Both the position numbers and the translations under genes were made by a program. Positions 8,296 through 10,600 of a stretch of DNA of 50,773 nucleotides are shown here, piece after piece. Positions within the stretch are counted from its first letter, which is position 1. Each line of letters opens with the position of its first letter. The stretch covers positions 1 to 50,773 of the forward strand of contig JAUIGU010000028.1 of assembly GCA_030432595.1 (NCBI GenBank). The letters run 5' to 3'. The notes under the pieces are model-generated. The model had not been told where the DNA came from. It saw nothing but the letters and a program-made list of their open reading frames with translations, and ran no database searches. Source of the stretch: Phycisphaerae bacterium (GTDB lineage: Bacteria > Planctomycetota > Phycisphaerae > Phycisphaerales > Phycisphaeraceae).

Positions 8296-9213
8296 ATGAG
8301 CGAAGCCCCTTCGAGCCCCGGCCCGTCCGGCAACCCTTACGCCCCCACCGTTCTGAACAAAGGGGAAGACGTGGCCAAACGCTCGAAACAACCCGACAAG
8401 TCGCCGCCGCACGAGGTCGTGTTCTTCGCGTACCCCAAGCTGATCTACGCCTGGCCGTTGATCGTCGCGGGCTTGGGGTTCTACTTCCTGGCGTGGGGAT
8501 GGGAGTCCGCGTTCTCAACCGAGAGCTACGAATCGCTCTCCGGCTTCCTGGGGTGGGCGTACCTGTTCACCACGCTCATCACGCTGACCACCATGGCGAT
8601 CGACCTGGAACGCAACTACGCGTTTGTGTGGGCGCTCATTTTCGGCTTGTTTTTCTTCGGGGGGCTGGCCCTTTCGTCGTGGACGAACATCCCGATCTTC
8701 GACAAGATCTTCGACTTCTTCTACCGCCTCGGCGCCAAGTACGACCCCGGTTACGGCCTCGCGCTGTCGATCCTTCTGTTGTTCCCGTACGCCGTCATGC
8801 TCATCTGGGTGCGGATCAATCATCGCTGGCGGATCACACACAACGAGTTCGAGCAGTACTCCTGGGGCCGGGCCGACGACTCGCTGGCGCGTGGGGCCAA
8901 GCGGGTGCGTTCGACCTACCCCGACCTGCTCGAGTTTCTGCTGTGCGGGGCGGGGACGCTGATCGTGTACTCGGCGACGGGCCGGAGCGAGCTGCGTCGG
9001 ATCCCCAACGTGCCGTTTCTGTTCCGGGTGCGGAAGAAGATCAACGCGCTGTTGGAGACGCAGCAGGTGACGCTGCGGGACCAGGACATGCTCGCCGAGG
9101 CCGAGTCGGAGGCCGAGGAATACGAGTCGGACTCGGCCGAGGACGGAGAGCGTCGAGGCGACGACCTCAGCCGCGGCGGAGCCGAGGGCATCGGCGGGAA
9201 CGACCCGCTTTGA
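8296..9213 (+). CDS. Membrane protein with cytoplasmic PH-like domain, function unknown
   Basis: 305 residues. About 40 polar, Pro/Ser-rich residues precede four predicted membrane segments (near 48-68 around LIYAWPLIVAGLGFYFLAWG, 80-98, 112-130 around FVWALIFGLFFFGGLAL, and 153-173 around LALSILLLFPYAVMLIWV). A domain of about 90 residues follows (HRWRITHNEFEQYSWG ... GTLIVYSATGRSELRRIPNV), which looks like a bacterial PH-type beta domain, and then a very acidic tail. The tentative PH assignment rests on the beta-strand pattern only. It is not obviously part of the transporter operon, being separated from it by 178 nt and an inverted repeat. Start ATG 8296 has no strong Shine-Dalgarno. Confidence 0.85.
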   Translation: MSEAPSSPGPSGNPYAPTVLNKGEDVAKRSKQPDKSPPHEVVFFAYPKLIYAWPLIVAGLGFYFLAWGWESAFSTESYESLSGFLGWAYLFTTLITLTTMAIDLERNYAFVWALIFGLFFFGGLALSSWTNIPIFDKIFDFFYRLGAKYDPGYGLALSILLLFPYAVMLIWVRINHRWRITHNEFEQYSWGRADDSLARGAKRVRSTYPDLLEFLLCGAGTLIVYSATGRSELRRIPNVPFLFRVRKKINALLETQQVTLRDQDMLAEAESEAEEYESDSAEDGERRGDDLSRGGAEGIGGNDPL

Positions 9214-9291: not shown

Positions 9292-9321
9292 TTGCATCTT
9301 CCCCGGCTTAGGGCCTATAAT
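9292..9321 (+). promoter_or_regulatory. Sigma-70-type promoter of the DUF3553 transcript
   Basis: TTGCAT (9292-9297) and a consensus TATAAT (9316-9321) are separated by 18 nt. This is the best housekeeping promoter match on the plus strand, in a locally AT-richer stretch. Transcription would begin near 9328. Confidence 0.75.
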
Positions 9322-9327
9322 TCGCAA

Positions 9328-9795
9328 GTCGCAGGAACATCCTGCCGATGACGGACGTACCGGAGGGAGATTTCGGCCGATTGGCCACTCCATCGCTTTA
9401 GAGCAGACCCGAAGGGATTCGGAATCCGAGCCGATGTAGAAGTGGGTATCCGCGGGTCGGGACCCGATCACGACACCAGAGAATGGAACGCCGCCGGCTG
9501 ATCTGTCGCGATGACGCGGCCGGCGCTCTCGGGACGGTTGCCTCCCACGACGGAGGTTTGTGGGTCGATTTTGTTTCTGGAACGGCCGCTCGGCGAGATT
9601 GCCGGGCCACGCCGTGGTCTTGACGCAAGGGGACGATGTCCAAACGGGCGGCCATCAATGCCGCCCCGCCCGCCCGACGAATCGGGCGTTCACGCCTGAA
9701 CGGCGTGTGACCTGAATGCTGAACTGATTCTTCACCCGGTGGCTTCCGCCGTGAGCCGTGCTCGCGTTGGGTTCCACCAAGACAATTCAAACAAC
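9328..9795 (+). other. Long structured leader or separate small RNA upstream of the DUF3553 gene
   Basis: About 470 nt separate the promoter from the next start codon and hold no convincing reading frame. Many hairpins can be drawn: GCAGGA/TCCTGC (9331-9345), GGCCGATTGGCC, CCGAA/TTCGG, CGGGTC/GACCCG, CGCCGGC/GCCGGCG (about 9490-9525), CCTCC/GGAGG, and CACGCC/GGCGTG near 9690. I compared it by eye with RNase P RNA, tmRNA, SRP RNA, 6S RNA and common riboswitch consensus boxes and found no match. It could be a cis-regulatory leader, an independent ncRNA, or an unstructured spacer whose GC content makes chance hairpins easy. Confidence 0.4.
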
Positions 9796-10536
9796 ATGGT
9801 TTCGACAATCAAATTCGAGAAGGGGGATCGCGTCAAGCATCCCAAACGACCGGAGTGGGGCTCGGGGGTGGTGCGGGACACCGCCGCCATCACGCACGAG
9901 GGCAAGGCCGCCCAGCGGTTGACCATCGACTTCGCCGCCAAGGGCCGGGTCGTGATCAACGCCGCCATCGCCCCGCTGGAAAAAGTCGGCAAGTCGGCCG
10001 TGCCCGTGACCGCCGAGAAGAACCACCGCGGTTCGGCGGCGCAGCTCTGGGCGGGGCACCCCGACGGCTCCCAGCACGCCAACGGCACCCGCAACGGCAC
10101 CGCCGACAAGGCCGACCTCTCCCGGGGCCGGACCACCACCGGCGGCAGCGGCGACTCCGGCTGGCTCAACGAACTCGAGGTCGCCGGCGGCAAGAAGCAC
10201 GAGCTCTGGGAGCTGCCCGACCCGCTGACCGACCCCTTCTCCACCCCCGAGCAGCGCCTCCGCGCCACGCTCGACAGCTACAAATACTCCACCGAGCCGC
10301 GGGCCCTCATCGCCTGGGCCATCGTCCAGACCGGGCTCGACGACCCGCTCACCAAGTACACCCGGCCCGAACTCGAGCAGGCCTTCCCCCGCTTCGCCCG
10401 GGACCGCGACGCCCACCTCCGCGCCCAGGTCCGCGACCTGAAACGCAAAAACGACCACGCCACCATCAAGGCCTGCATGAAGGGCGGACTCATCCCCGCC
10501 GCCCAGTCCGCGATCGACCGCGCGATGCGCGCCTGA
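9796..10536 (+). CDS. DUF3553 domain protein
   Basis: 246 residues. The N-terminal ~60 residues (KFEKGDRVKHPKRPEWGSG through LTIDFAAKGRVVINAAIAPL) match the DUF3553 pattern, a small beta-barrel resembling CarD/Tudor-like domains and also found at the end of some UvrD-type helicases. After a low-complexity linker (about 75-125, rich in Gly, Thr and Asn), a helical C-terminal region (EQRLRATLDSYKYSTEP to the end) ends in a basic stretch. ATG 9796 was chosen because the domain begins directly after it; an upstream in-frame GTG at 9739 adds 19 residues. The gene sits alone between a strong promoter and a terminator. A nucleic-acid or RNA-polymerase-associated role is plausible but unproven. Confidence 0.85.
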   Translation: MVSTIKFEKGDRVKHPKRPEWGSGVVRDTAAITHEGKAAQRLTIDFAAKGRVVINAAIAPLEKVGKSAVPVTAEKNHRGSAAQLWAGHPDGSQHANGTRNGTADKADLSRGRTTTGGSGDSGWLNELEVAGGKKHELWELPDPLTDPFSTPEQRLRATLDSYKYSTEPRALIAWAIVQTGLDDPLTKYTRPELEQAFPRFARDRDAHLRAQVRDLKRKNDHATIKACMKGGLIPAAQSAIDRAMRA

Positions 10537-10562: not shown

Positions 10563-10600
10563 GAAGCCCACGTTCACTGAACGTGGGCTTCTTCTCTTCT
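10563..10600 (+). terminator. Rho-independent terminator of the DUF3553 gene
   Basis: A 14-bp near-perfect stem, GAAGCCCACGTTCA (10563-10576) and TGAACGTGGGCTTC (10578-10591), is followed by a T/C-rich tail TTCTCTTCT. It begins 27 nt after the stop codon. Confidence 0.85.

Follow-up and report, generated by a model that had tools for sequence, protein, structure and literature searches.

Some bacteria regulate RNase E by feedback in cis, through the 5' UTR of rne, as described in the accessible part of PMC10989929. On the protein side, the DUF3553 domain of DinX was described as Tudor-like, its nearest counterpart being the domain by which PcrA/UvrD interacts with RNA polymerase (PMC6511836, part of the text), and the interaction of the PcrA/UvrD Tudor domain with RNA polymerase was described in the accessible parts of PMC5397179, PMC3797733, PMC7585439, and PMC8318588. 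In a literature search that covered few subscription papers, mention of DUF3553 was confined to work on DNA polymerases, and the portions of the literature on planctomycete riboswitches and structured RNAs available to that search held no description of a leader upstream of a DUF3553 gene. We analyzed a stretch of 50,773 nt (hereafter the window; contig C48 of a 4.39 Mb genome) in which a DUF3553 gene follows a long intergenic stretch. A first-pass annotation had offered three options for this stretch, a new riboswitch-like leader, a site of autoregulation by the DUF3553 protein, or a separate small RNA, and we infer that the autoregulatory site fits best. As judged from sequence comparison, the stretch very probably serves the DUF3553 gene as a long 5' untranslated leader, and it probably exerts control in cis of one kind or another. 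Our preferred reading, a tentative one, is that this 5' leader is of an undescribed kind, acts in cis, and places a putative repair-linked transcription factor under feedback control.

The predicted promoter consisted of a -35 element TTGCAT (9292..9297, forward strand) and a -10 element TATAAT (9316..9321, forward strand), separated by a spacer of 18 nt. It had been called strong, and this was borne out for the -10 element, a perfect match to the consensus, but not for the -35 element, which matched at only 3 of 6 positions; the automated promoter scan of the window also left TTGCAT-N18-TATAAT uncalled. When the 520 nt before the DUF3553 gene were scanned, this TATAAT was the sole -10 hexamer with at least five matches, and a sister species (L010, whose protein is the same as that of L038) carried TTGCCA-N18-TATACT at the corresponding place. 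With the start site placed about 7 nt past the -10 element, the predicted 5' leader would comprise 468 nt (9328..9795, forward strand) and end at the DUF3553 gene (9796..10536, forward strand, 246 aa), whose product matched PF12073 with 55.4 bits (cut-off 20.3). The ATG at 9796 was taken as the start because the preceding residues, judged by eye, were unconserved in relatives. The terminator scan placed an intrinsic terminator, a 13-pair terminator-like hairpin, 3' of the gene (10563..10591, forward strand), in agreement with the annotated closure of the DUF3553 gene by a terminator. Upstream of the promoter, positions 8296-9213 hold a membrane-protein-like gene without a Pfam match over cut-off, and proteins similar by eye to its product were also seen upstream of DUF3553 in L009, L013, and L017.

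PF12073 was present in 44 of the 51 genomes of the window's family (probably Phycisphaeraceae). When named genomes were searched by profile, the best 80 of 86 matches yielded 79 loci, all planctomycete, and 93 loci were left once identical proteins had been removed. Locus L055 lies at 4061648-4065859 of CP066225.1, from Poriferisphaera heterotrophicis ZRK32, a strain for which strand-specific RNA-seq has been described (PMC10945688). A promoter score of at least 9 at -180 to -490 was reached at 24 of 38 family loci, a set that omits genus g33 (L015, L016, L018, and L020, with short leaders), L121, and helicase-fused copies, compared with 2.4 (S.D. 1.5) in dinucleotide shuffles. The same test gave 1/38 on the reverse complement, 1/38 further upstream, 0/38 within the gene, and 5/33 downstream. 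When the best promoter was chosen blind at 42 loci, a count that restores g33 and leaves out L121, a promoter was found at 29, of which 25 lay at -180 or beyond, and the remaining four all belonged to g33, with the -10 at -63 to -75; the 13 other loci had no promoter of score at least 9 in the last 495 nt, and L033 scores in both blind counts through a promoter judged wrong. Outside the family, the distant promoter was found at 8 of 49 loci (2.6 expected, S.D. 1.2). Judged from 24/38 family loci versus 8/49 loci outside, the predicted long leader belongs chiefly to the window's family, and the exception is g33, which lacks it at all four loci since the promoters lie only 63-75 nt upstream. The four g33 loci kept the gene and the ligA motif, and in all four g33 genomes DUF3553 also matched a second frame, of about 780 residues. 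Comparison thus shows the position of the predicted promoter and that its distance from the gene is chiefly a family trait, and the annotated long leader before the DUF3553 gene is strongly supported by relatives. The annotation had proposed an alignment of sequences upstream of relatives' genes and had named a lack of conservation there as an argument against the leader; conservation was found, in the promoter position and in a 5' element.

In the clearest cases the 5' element lay directly behind a 5'-terminal stem-loop. In the window the stem-loop, GCAGGA-ACA-TCCTGC, has 6 pairs (9331..9345, forward strand), and 0 of 300 segment shuffles gave one as good. The pairing was kept in L010, where the 5' arm had changed and pairing was retained partly through G-U pairs. 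The conserved element, GCCGATG in the window (9344..9350, forward strand) and most commonly GCCGATA in relatives, lies at the end of the stem-loop. The window's genus was represented by two species, with a protein identity of 80% between the window and its sister species, and over a stretch that starts shortly ahead of the -10 and runs to CCGAT, 31 of 40 positions were the same in the window and L010, the stretch ending in TCCTGCCGAT. Three extra copies of CCGAT lie at 9377-9381, 9431-9435, and 9464-9468 (forward strand). The window leader thus holds four copies within its first 150 nt (9345-9468), and the sister leader has one.

The position of the element was examined across the family. Of 28 loci whose promoter scored at least 8, 14 had CCGAT no more than 65 nt from the -10, compared with 2.5 in shuffles; the six g15 leaders were scored as misses in this count. 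Among 35 curated leaders, which included several weak promoters and four (L014, L128, L123, and L035) placed with the element in view, 17 had CCGAT in this range versus 2.9-5.5 expected from real control-region word frequencies, and at offsets of 21-27 nt past the -10 it was present in 10 of 35 versus 0.35-0.68 expected. Promoters chosen blind gave 12/25 for the first 65 nt and 5/25 for 21-27 nt. In an unbiased heptamer scan GCCGATA topped the list, occurring in 9 leaders versus 0.6 expected (z 11.4; highest z among 20 shuffled null sets, 6.4), in a set of 31 from which five relatives had been dropped and in which L082, L123, L128, and two g15 leaders were included. Two of the nine matches were in g15 and are not independent of the invariant blocks of g15 described below. 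Anywhere in the 520 nt, GCCGAT occurred at 26/38 loci versus 19/38, 17/38, 5/38, and 21/33 in controls; at other places in the 520 nt the word is common in these genomes, so the evidence for the element is only positional. Outside the family GCCGAT was found at 9 of 49 loci versus 9.6 expected, and L082 was the only one of these 49 with the element behind a promoter and a repeat. Taken together, it is very likely, on these positional counts and on the block CCGATATA, invariant in g15, that a short element, GCCGAU often followed by A, has been kept near the 5' end of the leader across the family.

Two further searches were made with this word. The pattern of a -10, N14-34, and CCGAT occurred twice in the genome, the second time about 60-70 nt before another gene, compared with 3 occurrences of the backward control and 0 of a version with CCGTA; since the backward control reached 3, the count proves little, though a private cis element would agree with it. 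For possible long-range pairing with CCGAT, ATCGG was counted 14 times versus 9.4 (S.D. 2.7), and RTCGG 38 times versus 22.8 (S.D. 4.1); four such words were tried in all.

In 24 leaders, the stem that ends at the element was scored against single-base shuffles, and the summed score was 278 versus 217 (S.D. 14), with no shuffle above 260. Taken singly, the stem was significant in six leaders (L001, L009, L010, L032, L051, and L053) and not in the other 18. No stem at the element was found in L014 and L035, no significant stem was found in leaders with the element shifted to 32-85 nt, and the promoters of L048 and L124 are too near the element to allow one. Some of the repeats, for example in L001 and L051, were perfect or near-perfect palindromes, as would be expected if the repeat and the CCGAT at about +16 formed a DNA operator for a repressor, possibly the Tudor protein itself, with no RNA element. 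The placement of CCGAT 21-27 nt past the -10 at 5/25 blind and 10/35 curated promoters fits such an operator. However, the repeats differ by genus and use G-U pairs (L010, L009, and L051), which fits RNA stems better, the element stands at 32-85 nt in other leaders without a significant stem, and an operator would leave the long leader unexplained. We consider the operator unlikely and take the element to act presumably as RNA, because the stem sequences differ among genera and are kept partly by G-U pairs. Another role for such an RNA would be that the stem-loop shields the 5' end of the mRNA from decay and the body of the leader is a passive spacer, without feedback. In the best cases the stem-loop stands at the 5' end, and the body is near-random between genera, but a pure stabilizer would need no fixed GCCGAU(A) word and a passive spacer would not account for the g15 blocks further inside the leader, which are invariant. 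This role is rather improbable, and more probable than the operator.

The body of the leader was compared for coding content, RNA families, and folding. No reading frame common to genera was found in 33 leaders, except for one 16-residue match (E 0.007). An upstream peptide was rejected as the function of the leader, since a search outside g15 gave just two tiny matches, one of them inside genus g30; g15 was left out of this verdict as the DNA itself is conserved there. A scan of the whole window with the covariance models of Rfam 15 gave only tRNA, 5S, and 23S matches at the gathering score, with none in the leader; below that score the window leader had only chance-level matches, and a scan of 16 relatives' loci gave two weak matches, both outside leaders. 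The stretch therefore matches no Rfam class, in line with what had been noted by eye. A nucleotide search with the window leader across the 51 genomes of the family recovered the leader itself and otherwise nothing but short matches, in five genomes, and a 21-nt exact match in L005 was taken as chance because that genome has no DUF3553 match.

The folding of the leader had been annotated as rich in possible hairpins. The window leader did fold at z -1.96 or -1.58 (two runs), but this was weak, and the mean z of 33 leaders (-1.03) was accompanied by -1.29 for their reverse complements, -0.53 for gene stretches, and -0.30 for upstream stretches. Hairpin richness was rejected as evidence because the opposite strand folded equally stably. 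The terminator scan found a weak terminator-like hairpin within the leader (9544..9564, forward strand). Internal terminators were present in 13 of 33 leaders versus 6.7 in shuffles, which also reached 13, and T runs were not enriched in the 33 leaders. As terminator-like hairpins were not clearly enriched, no function was claimed for 9544-9564, and the leader was rejected as an attenuator. These counts bear on the idea that polymerase pauses, or is loaded with the Tudor protein, at the 5' element and, when carrying the protein, would go on to read through or stop in the leader. The resemblance of the Tudor domain to that of PcrA/UvrD, the early emergence of the element after initiation, and the weak hairpin in the window leader speak for it; the terminator and T-run counts speak against, and we regard it as improbable.

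The same hairpin, together with a promoter of its own, could suggest that a small RNA gene, separate from DUF3553, happens to stand upstream of it. The 33 leaders, however, had no consistent 3' end and no conserved terminator before the gene, the window showed no other promoter candidate from which the gene could be read, and in 400 genomes of the order a conserved block of the g15 leaders was found only before the DUF3553 gene. A small RNA is thus very unlikely, and this option of the annotation was not supported.

In genus g15, with six species (L013, L017, L019, L022, L024, and L026), the body of the leader was conserved in blocks, over about 370 nt. Three runs of at least 8 nt, CAAAGTTG, CCGATATA, and TGCCGGTTGATCGAAGGA, were invariant in 6/6 species, versus 0.03 such runs by permutation, and the longest, TGCCGGTTGATCGAAGGA, has 18 nt. 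A loop was predicted at TGCCGGTTGATCGAAGGA, with AAGGAG in five of the leaders and AAGGAA in L022; we take AAGGAG to be Shine-Dalgarno-like. Identity among g15 leaders was 56-77%, compared with 61-82% at fourfold-degenerate sites of the gene, so the leaders are kept no better than fourfold sites and only the blocks speak for constraint. Consensus folding of g15 gave a moderate signal (z -2.7 versus column shuffles, 0/200 as low), and 10 of 58 predicted pairs had changed on both sides. A 27-nt core block, searched with up to 2 mismatches, occurred once in each g15 genome, before the DUF3553 gene, and was absent from the other 394 of the 400 genomes searched. The g15 leader profile had no significant match in other genera among the 93 loci. 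In the other genera tested, sister leaders aligned at 39-58%, near the 28-50% of shuffled controls, so no shared fold was shown outside g15. The length of the leader, its hairpins, and the strong conservation of the g15 blocks are what a metabolite-sensing riboswitch would offer, yet the leaders gave no Rfam match, the g15 profile failed to extend to other genera, no aptamer-like core is common to the genera, and the gene does not look metabolic. A riboswitch is therefore highly improbable, and the riboswitch-like leader first suggested found no support, since the genera share the short 5' element and no core.

The DUF3553 protein was then considered as the possible effector. Its N-terminal domain (9814..9987, forward strand; PF12073) looks like the Tudor fold of PcrA/UvrD. 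PF21196 (PcrA_UvrD_tudor) scored 20.6 bits on the protein alone, under the cut-off of 23.9, and 24 with neighbors in the genome scan. Residues 4-64 aligned with the Tudor domains of UvrD1/UvrD at Z 8.2 (VIA-align; rmsd 1.7-2.0, 54 residues, 32-37% identity), a Z near 8 being not decisive by itself for this program. Sequence matches to PcrA/UvrD chains had E values of 0.01-0.6, and no Foldseek match reached E 0.001, with CarD, Mfd, and the UvrD Tudor domain in the top rows. The rest of the protein comprised a conserved helical C-terminal domain (10147..10533, forward strand; alignments of relatives, model mean pLDDT 85) of about 125 residues, for which no clear PDB match among the fold families listed (best Z 5.2 over 80 residues) and only chance-level Pfam matches were found. 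By homology, the DUF3553 protein would bind RNA polymerase. Elsewhere in the same genome, at G000:C19:17814-17939 (L138), an open frame of 847 residues matched the PcrA/UvrD Tudor profile with 29.9 bits, above cut-off, so a second Tudor protein is probably present.

The neighborhood of the gene was also examined. A ligA motif was present 3' of the DUF3553 gene, on the same strand, at 28 of 37 family loci versus 0 of 49 others, counted by a short motif at those of the 42 family loci with enough downstream DNA. The loci with the motif include L009, L013, L051, and L063, and an NAD-dependent DNA ligase was confirmed by Pfam in all three loci tested. The window locus was without the motif. In L063, a UvrC gene (Pfam) is divergent from the DUF3553 gene. 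The Tudor similarity, together with the ligA and UvrC neighbors, suggests that the DUF3553 protein is a repair-linked partner of RNA polymerase.

A hairpin and a conserved tag at the start of a long leader make it probable that the stretch controls the amount of DUF3553 protein. In the mechanism that we propose, the leader and the DUF3553 gene would be transcribed together from a single promoter of the sigma70 type, some 470 nt before the gene, and the first 20 nt or so of the transcript would fold into a stem-loop ending in GCCGAU, which throughout the family stays close to the 5' end as most of the leader drifts. The leader, transcribed as predicted, would act in cis and after initiation, setting the level of a Tudor protein that would bind RNA polymerase. 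Feedback would arise if the Tudor protein, or an elongation complex carrying it, recognized the 5' element, and recognition would alter the stability, translation, or read-through of the protein's own mRNA. A more specific and rather doubtful form of this mechanism would be a new class of leader, in which the stand-alone Tudor protein senses the transcribing polymerase on its own mRNA, with the stem-loop and GCCGAU loading or pausing the polymerase and the free protein deciding whether the leader is crossed. If this were true, the cell would meter a repair-linked polymerase partner by polymerase traffic itself.

What appears undescribed here is a predicted leader with a defined 5' element before a polymerase-binding-like protein, usually beside a DNA ligase gene. 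If the feedback is true, it would offer a way into the question of how a probable transcription-repair factor is kept at its level in these planctomycetes. The comparison also indicates that the body of a leader can drift past alignment when length and a 5' tag are retained, and covariance searches would miss such cases. Compared with PcrA/UvrD, the DUF3553 protein shares the fold and sequence of the C-terminal Tudor domain over residues 4-64, but it pairs the Tudor domain with a helical C-terminal domain and has no helicase. Weinberg et al. 2010 (PMC2864571), in the part of the text available, has no mention of a DUF and one Planctomycetes entry, Rhodopirellula-1. Like the candidate structured RNAs of that study, the leader is a conserved non-coding stretch before one gene family. 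Unlike the rne 5' UTR, it belongs to another gene in another phylum, is without an Rfam match, and has feedback as a proposal; like the rne 5' UTR, as far as the available description goes, it is a long leader through which its own gene product may feed back.
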